A program made the translations under genes and the position numbers. 64,000 nt of DNA from Candidatus Bathyarchaeota archaeon (GTDB lineage: Archaea; Thermoproteota; Bathyarchaeia; Bathyarchaeales; Bathycorpusculaceae), in assembly GCA_903901015.1 (NCBI GenBank), contig CAIUPH010000113.1, forward strand, positions 1 to 64,000. The letters run 5' to 3'. Of the stretch, positions 8,939 through 54,446 are shown one piece after another. Below the pieces are notes generated by a model. That model saw only the letters and a list, made by a program, of their open reading frames with translations, searched no databases and was not told the origin of the DNA. Positions within the stretch are counted from its first letter, which is position 1. Every line of letters begins with the position of its first letter.

Positions 8939-9017
8939 GGGCTCGTAGTCTAGCACGGATTAAGGCATCGGCCTCCGGAGCCGAGAATCCTGGGTTCAAA
9001 TCCCAGCGGGCCCGCCA
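8939..9017 (+). tRNA. tRNA-Arg (CCG anticodon)
   Basis: Full cloverleaf. The acceptor GGGCTCG pairs with CGGGCCC, the anticodon stem TCGGC/GCCGA encloses CTCCGGA (anticodon CCG), the T-arm is CTGGG TTCAAAT CCCAG, the discriminator is G, and CCA is encoded. No intron. The last 26 bases recur at 9692-9717. Confidence 0.97.
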
Positions 9018-9079: not shown

Positions 9080-9286
9080 ATGAATGCGAAAACCACGGTT
9101 AAATGCTGGGGAAACTCCTTAGGCGTTGTCCTCCCAAAAGCACTCGTTGACGAAGAGGAACTCAAAGAAGGCGAAGAAGTCGAAATCACAGTCCGCAAAA
9201 TATCAGATGTCCGTTCCCTTCGAGGAAAATATCCCTTTAAAAACCTGCAGCATGAAAAAGAAAAAATGAAACGCGGCTGGCAATAA
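9080..9286 (+). CDS. vapB: VapB antitoxin, AbrB/SpoVT fold
   Basis: The 68-residue protein has a swapped-hairpin AbrB-type DNA-binding domain (TVKCWGNSLGVVLPKALV, then LKEGEEVEITVRK) and a short basic tail that would wrap the toxin. It neutralises the adjacent PIN toxin and probably represses its own promoter through the palindrome that ends 3 bp upstream. The toxin gene starts one base after its stop, so translation is coupled. The pair sits alone between tRNA-Arg and a copied tRNA end. Confidence 0.85.
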   Translation: MNAKTTVKCWGNSLGVVLPKALVDEEELKEGEEVEITVRKISDVRSLRGKYPFKNLQHEKEKMKRGWQ

Positions 9287-9287
9287 A

Positions 9288-9668
9288 TTGGAAAAAACCA
9301 GATACTTCTATGACAGCTACGCGGTTATGGCTTACCTAAGCGACAGCCCCAATTATAGGGCTTATTTTGAAGAAAACGATGGTGTCTTAACCAAATTAAA
9401 CCTAACAGAAATCTGCTATCGAACAATAGAACTCCACGGAGAAGAAGCCGCTGCCCAAGTGGTGGAATTGTTCGCTAAATACACCATTGACTTTGCCCCG
9501 CGAGATATTGTGGGAGCAATGAAGCTCAGGTTGACACTCAAGAAAGATGACCGCAACATATCCTACGCCGACGCCGTCGGATACTATCTTGCGCTAAAAA
9601 ATAAGTTAAAGTTCTTAACAGGTGATAAAGAATTCGAGGGGCTATACGGCGTTGAATTTGTTAAGTGA
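9288..9668 (+). CDS. vapC: VapC toxin, PIN-domain ribonuclease
   Basis: The 126-residue PIN domain is presumed to cut RNA with Mg2+. The acidic residues are in place: D in FYDSYAVMAYL near residue 9, E in LTEICYRT near 40, D in SYADAVGYYLA near 98, and D in FLTGDKEF near 117. It starts at TTG, immediately after the antitoxin stop. The target RNA (tRNA or rRNA loops in studied relatives) cannot be told from sequence. Confidence 0.88.
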   Translation: MEKTRYFYDSYAVMAYLSDSPNYRAYFEENDGVLTKLNLTEICYRTIELHGEEAAAQVVELFAKYTIDFAPRDIVGAMKLRLTLKKDDRNISYADAVGYYLALKNKLKFLTGDKEFEGLYGVEFVK

Positions 9669-9691: not shown

Positions 9692-9717
9692 GGGTTAAAA
9701 TCCCAGCGGGCTCACCA
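9692..9717 (+). repeat. Copy of tRNA-Arg 3' end (att-like)
   Basis: 26 bp matching the T-loop-to-CCA end of tRNA-Arg with three mismatches. No 5' tRNA half is recognisable upstream, so this is a fragment rather than a second gene. Confidence 0.75.
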
Positions 9718-25634: not shown

Positions 25635-26157
25635 CGGGCTTCCCAACAGGGAGCAAGCATTAGAACTCCTTCGCAAACATAAGTGTCCGCCACAAGTCAT
25701 CGAGCACACCACAGCCGTAGCAGACCTCGCAGTTGAAACCGCAGATAAACTCCAGAGCAAAGGAGTAAAAGTAAACGTGTACCTCGTTGAGGCAGGTGCA
25801 CTTTTGCATGACCTCGGACGCTCAAAAGTCCACACCGTTGACCACGCCGTGGTTGGAGCAGAGATCGCACAGTCCATAGGTTTACCGGAGCCTATCATCA
25901 GGATAATTAAGCGGCATGTTGGCGCAGGAATCACTGCTAAAGAAGCCCAAGCGCTGGGTTGGCCAAAAGACACCTACACACCACAATCGATTGAGGAAAA
26001 AATTGTTTCCTACGCCGACAAACGAATCGACAAATCAAAAAGAGTGCCGATTGAAGTCGAAATTGAGAAGCTGCAAAAAGAAAATAAGTTTGAAGCAGCT
26101 GAGAGAGTTAGGAAATTAAACGATGAAATAACCAGTTTACTGGGGCAAAAACCATGA
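25627..26157 (+). CDS. HD-domain phosphohydrolase, TIGR00295 type
   Basis: 176 residues with the HD metal motif. H in VIEHTTAVADL, the HD pair in GALLHDLGRSK near residue 60, H in VDHAVVGAEIA and H in IIKRHVGAG near 97 form the expected ligand set. The C-terminal helix is charged (EVEIEKLQKENKFEAAERVRK). It probably hydrolyses a nucleotide or phosphoester of unknown identity. It starts at GTG 25627 inside the end of tfe. Its ATGACT stop overlaps the DUF2110 start. Confidence 0.9.
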   Translation: MSSGLPNREQALELLRKHKCPPQVIEHTTAVADLAVETADKLQSKGVKVNVYLVEAGALLHDLGRSKVHTVDHAVVGAEIAQSIGLPEPIIRIIKRHVGAGITAKEAQALGWPKDTYTPQSIEEKIVSYADKRIDKSKRVPIEVEIEKLQKENKFEAAERVRKLNDEITSLLGQKP

Positions 26158-26936
26158 CTACGTTAACATTATTAGTTAAAGCCACAAACTTTGGGCAGGC
26201 AAAACAGATAGATGAGTTGTTGCAAACTGAGTTTGGAGAATTAGACCTCGAAGTCAAAGTTTTAACAAACTCCAAGAACAGATGGGTGCAGGTTTCGCTT
26301 TCAGGCGAAGATGAAGCCATAGCGACCAGTTACATTAACAGGGAAATAGGCACCTGCCCCGGCAGCCTTGAAAACGCAAAAAACTTCCCCGTCATGAGAG
26401 GGTTCATTTCTAAACTGGACCTCTCCAAGCAGGAAGTTGTGGTGGACGTGGGGATTTTTGAGCCTAAAATAGTTCAGGCAACCATACCGTTGACGACTTT
26501 TCACACGCAACTCATGAATGGCAAAGCGTTGGATTTGAAGAAAATCGCGGAAAGCTACGCTCTCGCCGAACGCTCGCCGTTGAGCATTAAAGCTGTTTCG
26601 CCCCTCACCGACGCGACAGAGGGTTTTCAGGCGGAGTTGGCTGCTGAACAGGTTGAGAAGCTGCATGCATGGCAACAGTCGCTTTTGGATAGGTTGATTG
26701 TTCTGGGTGCTTCTAAGGAGACGCTTGAGAACGTGCTTAAGCGGACAAGGTTGACTCGGGATGTGATTGATATTGAGGATTTGGGTATGTTTGAGCATGC
26801 GTTGACTTGTAAACTGGGCACTAATGCGGCTGGTTTGGTCTCCGTTGTGGGTAGGTACCTTAGGAATTCGGTGTTTGTTGTTTTTAACGCTAAAAAGAGC
26901 CTCGATTTACTGAGTGAACATACATTAACCTCATAA
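26154..26936 (+). CDS. DUF2110 family archaeal protein
   Basis: 260 residues matching the archaeal DUF2110 layout. An N-terminal ferredoxin-like part (TLTLLVKATNFGQAKQIDEL, WVQVSLSGEDEAIATSYI) leads to a central S1-like beta region (MRGFISKLDLSKQEVVVDVGI). A helical domain follows (LHAWQQSLLDRLIVLGASKE, then RDVIDIEDLGMFEHALTCK), then a Gly-rich end. Function is unknown; constant linkage to tfe and trm56 suggests RNA or transcription. ATG at 26154 overlaps the upstream stop. The 3' third is much richer in G and T than the 5' part. Confidence 0.9.
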   Translation: MTTLTLLVKATNFGQAKQIDELLQTEFGELDLEVKVLTNSKNRWVQVSLSGEDEAIATSYINREIGTCPGSLENAKNFPVMRGFISKLDLSKQEVVVDVGIFEPKIVQATIPLTTFHTQLMNGKALDLKKIAESYALAERSPLSIKAVSPLTDATEGFQAELAAEQVEKLHAWQQSLLDRLIVLGASKETLENVLKRTRLTRDVIDIEDLGMFEHALTCKLGTNAAGLVSVVGRYLRNSVFVVFNAKKSLDLLSEHTLTS

Positions 26937-26987
26937 TAGTGTACATAAATAATTAAATTCTAATTGAAAGGGGAGAGGGGCATACCC

Positions 26988-27143
26988 ATGAGCCAAAACG
27001 ACGATAAAAGAAAATACAGAATCGACATAGGTGCCTATGGCAGCATAGGAATTGAAGCTCCCACAAAAGAAGAATACCTGGAACTCTTCAAAGAAGTCAC
27101 ACGAACAAAACGCGACTCCAAAATAGACGAAGCCATAAGATAA
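26988..27143 (+). CDS. Small hydrophilic protein (51 aa)
   Basis: Short gene starting ATG after GGGGAGAGGGGCATACCC, a purine-rich ribosome-binding site. The product is charged: YRIDIGAYGSIGIEAPTKEEY, then a basic helix LELFKEVTRTKRDS ending KIDEAIR. No family recognised. The good ribosome-binding site and protein-like composition support it. Confidence 0.5.
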   Translation: MSQNDDKRKYRIDIGAYGSIGIEAPTKEEYLELFKEVTRTKRDSKIDEAIR

Positions 27144-27203
27144 ACCAGCCCAAGCACCCATATCTGATAGTTCACTATAGAAAAAATAGTGTATCCTGCA
27201 AGT

Positions 27204-27400
27204 CTACAGGGCATTATGCTCTTCTTTGCAATGTGACTCGTAATCCTCGCGGTTTTCATAAACCGTCTGGTCGATGGGGCACTTGAACTTTTTATTGCAG
27301 GTCATTTCGGGTTCAGGAACCGTAACTCGCGGCGCGGTACTCTTGCATTCGCTCTCAGCTCGCTTTTGCAGCCACATTCGCATTCATCTTTTTCATGCAA
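27204..27400 (-). pseudogene. Small zinc-finger protein, apparently frameshifted
   Basis: Two frames combine into one plausible protein. From TTG 27400, seven bases after GGAGGTG, it reads HEKDECECGCKSELRAN. Near 27330-27345 the frame must shift to give VTVPEPEMTCNKKFKCPIDQ and then VYENREDYESHCKEEHNAL, a C2H2-like finger, ending at 27204. The second half alone also opens with ATG at 27383 (59 residues). Either the gene is broken or only the second half is made. It lies on the opposite strand to its neighbours. Confidence 0.4.
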
Positions 27401-27586
27401 TCATTTTCACCTCCAACAAAACCCAGCCGCAAAAAACAATTATCCAAGCCAGTGCATAGTTATTCAAAATATGTGACTACACCAAACCAACAACCAACAA
27501 TTAAAAAACAAATAACCTTCGTGCCCTCACGTACAAACAAATACTGGAACCGCATCTTAACTAAGAAAAATACAGTTGGGAACTCG

Positions 27587-28465
27587 ATGGACACTTCAAA
27601 ACTGGAAAAAGCAAGCGCTTACGACCAAAACGGACAAAACAAAAAAGAAATCGACAACGCAATCACATGCCTAAAAGAGTTCAGACGCAAATTTCCCTTC
27701 ACCGAAAACCCAGCAGCAATAGACACAATCAAACCCGACGATATTTTCAATGAGAGTTCAGGTGAAGCTGGCGGGTTTTTCCATTATATAGAGTATTACT
27801 TTAAGCCTCTGGGTCACTCTGCAAATAGAGATACGGGCGTTTACCGCAATATAAGAACGCAAATCATTGATTTCAAGAACCTGCTCAAAGTTGCAGTTGA
27901 CAAGAAACGGTCGCTGACTGAAAAAGTCGACGCCAACTGGGGAAAAATAAAGGGTTTAGGAGAAGACAAGCAACTTGCCAAAAAAATCATATTCTGCTTC
28001 AACTACGAAAACGCCAAAGTCCTGCCGATCTTCAGCACAAATCACCTTAAGCACTTCATAGGCAAAGTCGCCGACACACCTATTCTTCCAGCAAAATACT
28101 ACACGCCTGGCGAAGAATACGAGACCTTAACTTCTGAGCTTTTGAAAGCCAAAAACAGCCTGCCAGCGACGCAGCCGTGGGAAATCACGTACTTCGCCCG
28201 TTTCCTCTACGAAAGTTACCCGCCGCCCGACAGAGAAAAAACCGCAGCCAACGGATCCAGTGGAAGAAAAACAGGAAACGTCGTCACAAAAGAGATGCTG
28301 GAGCAGGGAGAATTCATGCATCTGTTAGGCGAACTGCAAAAGCAAAGAAAAATCTCGGGTGAACAGTTCCGATTAAACCGCGAACTATGGGTGAACCAGC
28401 CGCAGGAAAGAAGCGGATTAACTAAACGGCTCAAAGCACAACTGAGCCAAAACACAACGATTTGA
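27587..28465 (+). CDS. Uncharacterised protein next to tRNA-Val cassette
   Basis: 292 residues from ATG 27587; the longer frame back to 27395 has basic, low-quality sequence and no ribosome-binding site. Blocks visible are AITCLKEFRRKFPFTEN, FFHYIEYYFKPLGH, NIRTQIIDFKNLLKVAVDKK, KKIIFCFNYENAKVLPIFSTNH (the best conserved-looking core) and a charged C-terminus with RNRELW-type repeats. No catalytic motif or membrane segment is seen. I do not recognise the family. It sits between a broken zinc-finger gene and a tRNA-Val-bounded cassette, so it is part of an accessory patch. Confidence 0.65.
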   Translation: MDTSKLEKASAYDQNGQNKKEIDNAITCLKEFRRKFPFTENPAAIDTIKPDDIFNESSGEAGGFFHYIEYYFKPLGHSANRDTGVYRNIRTQIIDFKNLLKVAVDKKRSLTEKVDANWGKIKGLGEDKQLAKKIIFCFNYENAKVLPIFSTNHLKHFIGKVADTPILPAKYYTPGEEYETLTSELLKAKNSLPATQPWEITYFARFLYESYPPPDREKTAANGSSGRKTGNVVTKEMLEQGEFMHLLGELQKQRKISGEQFRLNRELWVNQPQERSGLTKRLKAQLSQNTTI

Positions 28466-28489: not shown

Positions 28490-28515
28490 TGATGGGCCGA
28501 ACCGGATTTGAAGCA
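28490..28515 (-). repeat. Copy of tRNA-Val 3' end (att-like)
   Basis: 26 bp matching the last 26 bases of tRNA-Val (29485-29510) at 22 positions, in the same orientation. No other tRNA part is attached. Confidence 0.7.
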
Positions 28516-28592
28516 AAAATAGATTCAGGTGATGATTTACCACTTTTTTATTGGAAACAATTATAAATTGACCACTCAGAAATAACTCTCTT

Positions 28593-29420
28593 GTGCAGTT
28601 TAAATTTACAGCTAAAACCAAAAAATGGATCCTGCTAATCAAAATCATACCCATCCTATTAGCGATTTTCATTGCAAAGCTGATTGTTCATTGGTTAGGT
28701 TTTGAAATAGTAGATTTAAACGCGTTATTTACAAGCATAATAGCCGCAACCACTTTTCTGATAGGCTTTCTAATTGCTGGGGTAATAACCGATTACAAAG
28801 AAAGCGAAAAAATACCCGGCGACATATCAGCTAGCTTAGAAACAATATATGACGAAGCGTACATACTCGACAAAAACAAGCACAGCAAAGCAACCCAAGA
28901 CTTCCTCTTATACTACAACGATTTTCTATGGTCAGTAATTGAATGGTTTTACAGAAAGCAAAGAACAAAAGGCATCCTTGAAAAACTGCACGGCATGAAC
29001 AATTACTTTGGCGAATTTGAAAGCTTGATGCAGGCGGGTTTTCTTTCCAGAATGAAAAATGAACAGAGCAACCTTAGGAAAATGGTGATTCGGGTAGACA
29101 ACATAAGAGACTTACCGTTTATTCAATCAGCGTACACCATTGTAGAAATACTTGCATTTCTAGTCATCTCCGGTTTGCTTCTTATGAAACTGGAGCCTTT
29201 CTACGAAGCAATGTTCTTCTCGCTAACCGTCGCTTTTCTGCTCATATACATGATTAGGTTGATTAAGGATTTGGACAACCCGTTTGACTACGCTGCAAAT
29301 GGCGAGAGCGGAACCGAAGTATCCCTAAAACCGATACATGACTTAATAGCAAGAGTTAACGAGTACAAGCAAATACCCCCTGAAGCGTTAAAAAGCGAAA
29401 TACAAGAACCCCCCAGATAA
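28593..29420 (+). CDS. Bestrophin/DUF4239-like membrane protein
   Basis: 275 residues with four hydrophobic segments: near 13-35 (ILLIKIIPILLAIFIAKLIV), 45-65 (ALFTSIIAATTFLIGFLIAG), 185-205 and 208-225. Between them is a long soluble helical region with many aromatic residues (FLLYYNDFLWSVIEWFYRKQ). FLIGFLIAGVITDYKESEKI and the closing IRLIKDLDNPFDYA recall bestrophin-like DUF4239 proteins, which may be anion channels; the match is by eye and weak. It starts at GTG 28593. It is the only gene in the tRNA-Val-bounded cassette. Confidence 0.6.
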   Translation: MQFKFTAKTKKWILLIKIIPILLAIFIAKLIVHWLGFEIVDLNALFTSIIAATTFLIGFLIAGVITDYKESEKIPGDISASLETIYDEAYILDKNKHSKATQDFLLYYNDFLWSVIEWFYRKQRTKGILEKLHGMNNYFGEFESLMQAGFLSRMKNEQSNLRKMVIRVDNIRDLPFIQSAYTIVEILAFLVISGLLLMKLEPFYEAMFFSLTVAFLLIYMIRLIKDLDNPFDYAANGESGTEVSLKPIHDLIARVNEYKQIPPEALKSEIQEPPR

Positions 29421-29484
29421 CTCTACTTCGTATTTTGTTTTCTGCAAAAAACGAAAACACGGTACTTTATCGTGACGGGTTAAG

Positions 29485-29562
29485 TGGTGGGCCGAGCCGG
29501 AGTTGAACCAGCGACCTTTGGCGTGTAAAGCCAACGTCCTAACCAGGCTAGACGATCGGCCC
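29485..29562 (-). tRNA. tRNA-Val (TAC anticodon)
   Basis: Acceptor GGGCCGA pairs with TCGGCCC. The anticodon stem TTGGC/GCCAA encloses TTTACAC (anticodon TAC). The T-arm is GCTGG TTCAACT CCGGC, the discriminator is A, and CCA is encoded. No intron. A TAATATTA TATA-like box lies about 35 bp upstream. Confidence 0.97.
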
Positions 29563-53650: not shown

Positions 53651-53729
53651 AGCGGGGTGGGGTAGCCAGGATTAACCCGCTGGGCTCATAACCCAGAGAT
53701 CAGTAGTTCAAATCTACTCCCCGCTACCA
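53651..53729 (+). tRNA. Initiator tRNA-Met (CAT anticodon)
   Basis: Acceptor AGCGGGG pairs with CCCCGCT, giving the A1-U72 pair that marks archaeal initiators. The anticodon stem CTGGG/CCCAG carries the three G-C pairs of initiators and encloses CTCATAA. The T-arm is AGTAG TTCAAAT CTACT. CCA is encoded. No intron. Confidence 0.96.
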
Positions 53730-53796: not shown

Positions 53797-54057
53797 GTGT
53801 CTTATGTGTCAGAAAGCAAGTCCATCAAAGTCAGCAGAGAAACCTATGCCGAACTAAGCGAGATAGCAGGAGAACTGCAACTCAGACTAAAGCGACCTGT
53901 TTCGATAGAAGAAGCGATTAAACAGCTTACCAAACGACGCAAAAAAGGCGCCAAAATATCCGATTTAGCAGGATCTTGGAAGATGAGCGACAAAGACGCT
54001 GAAGAAATCAAGGCTTCAATCAATGCAGCGTGGAAAAATTGGAAAATGCCAGAGTAA
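53797..54057 (+). CDS. vapB: VapB-type antitoxin
   Basis: 86 residues. The N-terminus (SIKVSRETYAELSEIAGELQ, then RPVSIEEAIKQLTKRRK) is a ribbon-helix-helix DNA-binding element. The C-terminal acidic/aromatic tail (MSDKDAEEIKASINAAWKNW) is the toxin-binding part. The start is GTG 53797 or GTG 53806. Its end overlaps the PIN toxin gene by 28 bp. It lies just downstream of initiator tRNA-Met. Confidence 0.85.
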   Translation: MSYVSESKSIKVSRETYAELSEIAGELQLRLKRPVSIEEAIKQLTKRRKKGAKISDLAGSWKMSDKDAEEIKASINAAWKNWKMPE

Positions 54058-54446
54058 TAATAGATACCGACATACTTGTAGACTTTTTGAGGGGCAACCA
54101 AGAAGCTACATCATTAGTTAATCGCCTCGAAAAGGACAGGTTCTTGTTAGCCACAACTGCCATCAACGCGTTTGAATTATATTATGGTGCCCACAAATCG
54201 AAAGAGCCAGAAAGAGGAATAAAATCAACTAGACAACTGTTAGTAAAGCTTGTCCTTTTGCCGTTGACTGCAAAATCAGCTCAAAGGGCAGGGCACATTT
54301 ATGCTGACTTAGAAAAGCAGGGTCAACCGATAGGGCTTAGAGACACCCTGATAGGCGCGATCGCCCAAACAAGAGACTTTAGCCTTGCCACTAAAAACCT
54401 AAACCACTTCCAAAAAATCAGTGAACTTGAGCTAATTCATATTTGA
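54030..54446 (+). CDS. vapC: VapC toxin, PIN-domain ribonuclease
   Basis: 138 residues. PIN acidic residues are in VIIDTDILVDFLRGNQE, NAFELYYGA near 45, and GLRDTLIGAIAQ near 100, with the fourth region at LATKNLNHF. It starts at GTG 54030 within the antitoxin gene. This is a different subfamily from the VapC at 9288. Confidence 0.9.
   Translation: MEKLENARVIIDTDILVDFLRGNQEATSLVNRLEKDRFLLATTAINAFELYYGAHKSKEPERGIKSTRQLLVKLVLLPLTAKSAQRAGHIYADLEKQGQPIGLRDTLIGAIAQTRDFSLATKNLNHFQKISELELIHI

Follow-up and report, generated by a model that had tools for sequence, protein, structure and literature searches.

A 969-bp single-gene insert between tRNA-Val(TAC) and a partial copy of its 3′ end in a Bathyarchaeota genome, a candidate integrase-free tRNA cassette

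In archaeal tRNA-integrated elements, the anticodon loop, the T stem-loop and the 3′ end of the tRNA gene are the target regions according to the accessible part of the source (PMC8371274). In a 64,000-nucleotide stretch of a Bathyarchaeota genome (the window, by which the whole stretch is meant), a single membrane gene lies between tRNA-Val(TAC) and a partial copy of that gene's 3′ end, which raises the question of how one gene came to be enclosed in this way. The window belongs to contig C113 of a 2.05-Mb genome of 117 contigs that is 97% complete (G000). The features discussed below are collected in Table 1.

The final 26 bases of the tRNA-Val(TAC) gene reappear on its 3′ side, with 22 of 26 identities and 969 bp in between, as the initial annotation had described. 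A tail copy of this kind is the usual trace of insertion by an integrase that targets tRNA genes. The copy is the best non-self match for the tRNA-Val tail on both strands of the 64-kb window. When up to 3 mismatches are allowed, its core of 23 bases occurs in the window at the tail and at the copy alone, and it never appeared in 100 dinucleotide shuffles; from base composition, a match of 22/26 or better within 3 kb has a probability of 2.5e-7. The similarity is confined to tRNA positions 53-78, which run from the T stem through the terminal CCA, and it breaks off abruptly at the T stem, positions 1-52 being unrelated. The enclosed DNA has a GC content of 0.38 against 0.466 for the window, and a tblastn search (E <= 0.01) found neither an integrase ORF nor a fragment of one within its 969 bp.

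Table 1. Location of the features at the tRNA genes of the window, and of tRNA 3′-end copies and T-loop-class integrases elsewhere in the genome (G000).
Feature	Location	Strand	Basis or remark
tRNA-Val(TAC), intact	29485..29562	-	ARAGORN
tRNA-side attachment repeat (tRNA-Val(TAC) 3′ end)	29485-29510	-	repeat comparison
Distal attachment repeat (partial tRNA-Val 3′-end copy)	28490..28515	-	T stem to CCA, 22/26
Inserted DNA, 969 bp	28516..29484	.	between both Val repeats
Cargo gene, 275-aa membrane protein, predicted bestrophin fold, GTG start	28593..29420	+	ORF, profile, structure prediction
ORF just past the Val copy	27587..28465	+	homologues in order
Conserved flank (DUF2110 gene and intergenic DNA)	26154..27505	.	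homology to relatives resumes
tRNA-Arg(CCG), tRNA-side repeat of companion insert	8939..9017	+	ARAGORN
tRNA-Arg 3′-end copy, 23/26	9692..9717	+	repeat comparison, empty site in G012
Small ORF, 68 aa, antitoxin-like	9080..9286	+	
PIN-domain toxin (PF01850)	9288..9668	+	Pfam
tRNA-Met(CAT)	53651..53729	+	ARAGORN
VapBC-like pair behind tRNA-Met(CAT)	53797-54057, 54030-54446		
G000 tRNA-Ala(GGC) copy	9.9 kb downstream		46/46
G000 tRNA-Gly(TCC) copy	6.3 kb downstream		45/45
G000 tRNA-Thr(GGT) copy	774 bp downstream		33/33
G000 tRNA-Asn(GTT) copy	7.0 kb downstream		17/17
G000 tRNA-Arg(CCG) copy	700 bp downstream		23/26
G000 tRNA-Val(TAC) copy	995 bp downstream		22/26
G000 T-loop-class integrase	C54:24333-25172		383-codon open frame
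G000 T-loop-class integrase	C111		
G000 T-loop-class integrase, contig-edge piece	C96, beside tRNA-Ala(CGC)		91% identical over 22 residues

The interval had been said to hold just one membrane gene, and it indeed contains a single full ORF, which is convergent with tRNA-Val. The encoded protein matches the Bestrophin-like profile PF14023 with an E-value of 1.2e-4, under the Pfam cut-off, and 18 of 21 homologues match the bestrophin profile at E <= 0.01. Its AlphaFold2 model (pLDDT 81.3, pTM 0.69) finds the Klebsiella bestrophin among the best PDB matches listed by Foldseek (E 9.5e-6, TM 0.72). By its predicted structure the protein has the bestrophin fold and belongs to this family; it would be ion-channel-like, any channel function being a prediction from the model. 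The gene was found in none of the 161 other genomes of the order. In GTDB, 158 relatives were found, and the best eight of the best 80, which were kept, are 63-70% identical and come from Gracilibacteria, Moraniibacteriota, Patescibacteria, unnamed bacteria and two Nanoarchaeota records. This distribution, rather than a tree, points to acquisition by cross-domain transfer. The gene was not found in viral contigs, and its five plasmid matches are all distant. Among the best 80 of the 158 relatives, four have a tRNA within ~3 kb and none of these four has a tRNA-tail copy, so the gene does not seem to be habitual tRNA cargo. A Nanoarchaeota relative (L295) lies 53 bp behind tRNA-Arg, without a tail copy.

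Beyond the Val copy, the conserved flank does not follow directly. In the relatives, tRNA-Val is followed by a different gene and homology to the window restarts only near 27505; therefore, the ORF just past the copy is also displaced with respect to the relatives. The arrangement originally described at tRNA-Val is real, but the divergent stretch was drawn too short, since DNA unlike that of the relatives reaches ~27505. The displaced ORF has homologues in 32 of the 161 other genomes of the order and a weak PADLOC match to PD-T4-1 (E 1e-3). The homologues in G008 (C19:19029-19895) and G010 both lie 3′ of tRNA-Lys(CTT), 84 bp and ~1.4 kb away, respectively, and at the tRNA-Lys(CTT) of G000 itself a decayed, 44%-identical fragment (C92:36888-37145) is left at a distance of 82 bp. 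No tRNA-Lys tail was found near the ORF of the window; an older second tRNA-Val copy beyond it was also sought, and the best candidate, 16/26 at 3650 bp, is at background level. On this sequence comparison, the ORF may be an earlier acquisition at the same tRNA-Val hot spot.

The same tRNA-Val is indeed occupied in other genomes. Downstream copies of its 3′ part were found in five of 27 relatives (G008, G009, G011, G012 with two copies, and G014). The G011 insert is 5.4 kb long and carries its own integrase, while in G012 a leftover of 186 bp is followed by the same flank as that behind the G011 element. The 1.9-kb insert of G014 contains an FkbM-methyltransferase gene and keeps a 58-aa integrase piece (67% identical) at its distal repeat. 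Past the G014 copy, the sequence aligns with what immediately follows tRNA-Val in G013, and the next gene after tRNA-Val, 213-241 bp away in G003 and G002, is 2198 bp away in G014; judged from these alignments, the G014 insertion is precise relative to G013, G002 and G003. Three more contigs (G005, G023 and G031) have an integrase beside a detached 3′ half of tRNA-Val. In G005, tRNA-Val(TAC) is apparently divided between two contigs (L092 and L093), with positions 1-50 on one and 30-78 on the other, and the 3′ part lies near an integrase. The contigs of G007 and G029 break off within 5 bp behind tRNA-Val, as would be expected at a variable site.

The parallel that had been drawn with tRNA-Arg(CCG) stands as well. 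From 10 bp past its tail copy, the DNA aligns over 1.48 kb (73%) to G012, where the match begins 24 bp behind tRNA-Arg and no insert is present; by this alignment, the tRNA-Arg insertion is precise and G012 provides a clean empty site. The cargo is a PIN toxin after a small antitoxin-like ORF, which we take from its appearance to be an AbrB-type antitoxin. The tRNA-Thr(GGT) insert of G000 encloses VapBC alone (PF02697 and PF01850) within an intact repeat, so that two sub-1-kb inserts carry PIN toxin-antitoxin pairs, and no integrase trace was found in either the Arg(CCG) or the Thr(GGT) insert. A 0.84-kb VapBC insert lies behind tRNA-Val in G009, and a VapC-bearing insert with a tail copy of 25/27 at 881 bp lies behind tRNA-Met in G012. 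No tail copy was found at the homologous insert behind the tRNA-Met of the window, indicating that copies can decay or be lost. Within 1 kb of a tRNA, eight PIN genes lie on the 3′ side, where 1.6 are expected (p 3e-4; 63 PIN genes, 126 tRNAs), and one lies on the 5′ side; comparison of the two sides gives p 0.04. This test covers three genomes, G000, G021 and G008, because G024 has no PIN gene. At another site of G000 (L103, C69:37540-38460), tRNA-Ala(TGC) is followed by a PIN gene and then, ~775 bp downstream, by a near-full degenerate tRNA-Ala.

Copies of tRNA 3′ ends were then counted genome-wide, with the best copy within 10 kb taken for each of 39 Rfam tRNA hits in G000 at a threshold score of 14. 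Six of the 37 tRNA genes that have downstream sequence show a copy there, versus none of 39 upstream (best score 12) and none on the reversed strand (best 10). The relatives G024 (44 tRNAs) and G021 (30 of 45 tRNA genes) give 12/71 downstream versus 0/74 upstream, with control maxima of 10 and 11, and the pooled count of the three genomes is 18/108 downstream and none upstream (Fisher p ~1e-6; the Fisher tests took 112 and 38 upstream controls where the listings give 113 and 39). Because the near-full copy of tRNA-Ala(TGC) had been masked as a tRNA, it does not enter the count. The genome-wide excess of downstream partial copies anticipated from the window is therefore present. A full integrase occurs in seven of the 18 inserts, a fragment in one and no trace in ten, several of which are shorter than 1 kb; integrase traces in the G024 C1:963219 insert were sought only up to the copy at 4313 bp. 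The insert at G024 C3:406468 retains an integrase C-terminus. At C1:963219 of G024 (L213), three successive 3′-end copies of one tRNA lie at 1999, 4313 and 6056 bp, and each of them delimits a unit with one or two genes.

Repeat length sorts by integrase family, and at least two families are at work. Elements with PF16795-type integrases (n=3; G000 Ala, G000 Gly and G011 tRNA-Val) have repeats of 45-47 bp that start in the anticodon loop, and their integrase lies at the repeat away from the tRNA; in the G000 Ala element, PF16795 and PF00589 both match the integrase. In PF00589-class elements (n=5, of which two were scanned with Pfam and the other three are their homologues), the repeats are 21-28 bp long and start in the T arm, and the integrase adjoins the tRNA (G024 C3:245514, C2:135448, C1:634752 and C3:139103, and G021 C10:51775). 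The 26-bp Val and Arg repeats of the window fit this T-loop class by length. Of the 32 genomes of the genus, 31 have integrases of the class, and those encoded by G000 make a shared trans-acting integrase for the mini-inserts plausible. The initial annotation had suggested a general mechanism for very small cargo; integrase-free mini-inserts do recur, but a single mechanism is not upheld, given the two or more families. Two integrase elements elsewhere in G000 are apparently complete, one of 9.9 kb at tRNA-Ala(GGC) with a perfect 46-bp repeat (L112, C4:101.4-111.4 kb) and one of 6.3 kb at tRNA-Gly(TCC) with a perfect 45-bp repeat (L113, C66:15-21.4 kb).

Two tRNAs of G024 have integrase-free inserts whose far ends are alike in sequence (z 9.5-21), and a G021 insert end resembles them more weakly. 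A sequence model, R1, was built from six insert ends; the sites in which the motif was first noticed are part of its training set, and its E-values are rough. Across the 32 genomes of the genus, R1 matches at 111 places in 28, among them G024, G021, G005, G007, G009, G006 and G010. In these sites an A-rich tract precedes the palindrome GGCGATATCKCC, which is separated by ~11 nt from the captured T arm and 3′ end of a tRNA. The spacer is 11 nt in 17 of the 21 sites used, and the captured tail comes from one of several tRNAs. Site pairs within 4 kb are all on the same strand (11, versus none on opposite strands), and the R1 sites look like head-to-tail arrays of integrase-free cassettes with a common site. 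A listed T-loop-class integrase (90 rows, E <= 3.6e-16) lies within 10 kb on the element side of 7/111 sites, a proportion lowered by the fragmentation of the contigs. There is no R1 match in the window, and the Val and Arg copies are without the shared palindromic end. Against that end, the Val copy scores at a fraction of the null of 0.53 ungapped and 0.17 gapped; the Arg copy reached 0.001 in one gapped test, with nine sites tried, and was not counted. Because the DNA upstream of the Val copy is unlike the shared end, no integrase can be assigned to the Val insert.

What, then, is the Val insert? A chance match was rejected as the origin of the copy and has a negligible probability, with the empty shuffles, the low expectation and controls all below score 14. 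That the copy is a decayed tRNA-Val duplicate, or pseudo-tRNA, is highly improbable and was likewise rejected: near-full tRNA copies do exist, such as that of tRNA-Ala(TGC) on C69, but similarity at the Val copy halts at the T stem, as in the integrase-bearing elements, and tail copies were never found upstream of a tRNA. To the reading that the Val insert is a non-autonomous tRNA-integrated cassette, with its integrase supplied in trans, we give about an even chance. The boundaries and length of the repeat, the downstream-only excess, the precise insertions at tRNA-Arg and at the tRNA-Val of G014, the absence of the cargo from relatives, the occupation of tRNA-Val elsewhere, the fitting integrases in G000, the ten inserts without an integrase trace and the common end sequence of integrase-free inserts at two different G024 tRNAs all speak for it. 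It is weakened by the DNA past the copy, which is another acquired ORF and not the flank of the relatives, so that none of the relatives displays the exact junction that preceded this insertion. The lack of an assignable integrase, the rarity of tRNAs near the relatives of the cargo gene and the stripped remnant at the same tRNA-Val, the integrase stub of G014, weaken it further.

That stub leads to the reading that ranks next, since inserts of G014 and G024 both keep integrase pieces: the Val insert may be the remnant of a larger, integrase-bearing element that was stripped to one gene and the distal repeat, which we regard as a serious possibility of less than even probability. The four mismatches in the Val copy suggest time enough for such decay, and the 186-bp leftover of G012, ahead of the flank that follows the 5.4-kb element of G011, is of the kind expected. 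However, the G000 inserts at tRNA-Val, tRNA-Arg and tRNA-Thr yielded no integrase trace, the intact 33/33 repeat at tRNA-Thr(GGT) encloses VapBC alone, and small units arrayed head to tail with a common end would be hard to produce via random deletion. A wider scheme, in which T-loop-class integrases acting in trans stack recombinase-free cassettes with tRNA tails behind tRNAs in an integron-like system across the genus, with the Val and Arg inserts as old members or as a sister site family, is conceivable, but we hold it to be rather unlikely.

If the Val insert is a cassette moved in trans, its formation can be envisaged as follows. A tyrosine recombinase of the T-loop class would bring the chromosomal tRNA gene together with mobilised, perhaps circular, DNA that contains a tRNA-Val tail, and site-specific recombination at the 3′ end of tRNA-Val(TAC) would bring in the 969-bp cassette. 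tRNA-Val would thereby be rebuilt, and the displaced tail would stay behind as the 26-bp copy. As the cassette would have brought in a single gene of horizontal origin, for the bestrophin-fold membrane protein, without a recombinase, the enzyme would have to be supplied in trans, from another resident element; both the circular intermediate and the trans supply are postulated. The tRNA-Val site would further be an accretion hot spot, with a second acquired gene just past the copy.

Known systems share parts of this arrangement. As in elements of the SSV and pNOB8 classes, to judge from the available portion of the source, the tRNA 3′ end is targeted, the tRNA is rebuilt and a direct repeat lies at the far side; those elements are larger and carry their own integrase, whereas the Val insert is 1 kb long with one gene and no integrase (PMC8371274). 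The Val insert has the intact tRNA and 3′ direct repeat of a tRNA-integrated element and lacks an integrase of its own. Gene capture, in which trapped elements are left in a tRNA gene after integrase function is lost, was reportedly described in Archaea by She and co-workers. Such trapped elements likewise sit in a tRNA, but here there are many sub-kb units, some of them arrayed, with toxin-antitoxin pairs as sole cargo. Thaumarchaeal integrated elements span 2.6-140 kb, with the integrase as their shared gene in the text available (PMC6563490). Tycheposons, as far as the consulted part of the source describes them, are 4-200 kbp long with XerD and feature a tRNA border, a tyrosine recombinase and cargo, a likeness that ends with the 1-kb length and missing recombinase of the Val insert (PMC10872708). 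Archaeal integron cassettes and CALINs are alike in their single-gene units, frequent toxin-antitoxin cargo, integrase-free arrays and cross-domain genes; integron cassettes use attC, while here the tRNA tail is the site, a separation that goes by description, and the word tRNA is absent from the main text of that paper as accessible (PMC9668308). Sub-kb integrase-free tRNA cassettes in Archaea were not described in the literature searched, which covered few subscription papers, a weak indication at most. tRNA-integrated elements are already known; what appears to be new is the ~1-kb integrase-free form.

Archaeal surveys look for integrases and would miss integrase-free inserts of 0.6-3 kb; 10 of the 18 inserts in the three genomes are without an integrase trace. 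Should such inserts be mobilised in trans, single genes and toxin-antitoxin pairs would have a general way in through tRNA tails, and cross-domain genes such as the bestrophin-like channel would be among those entering.
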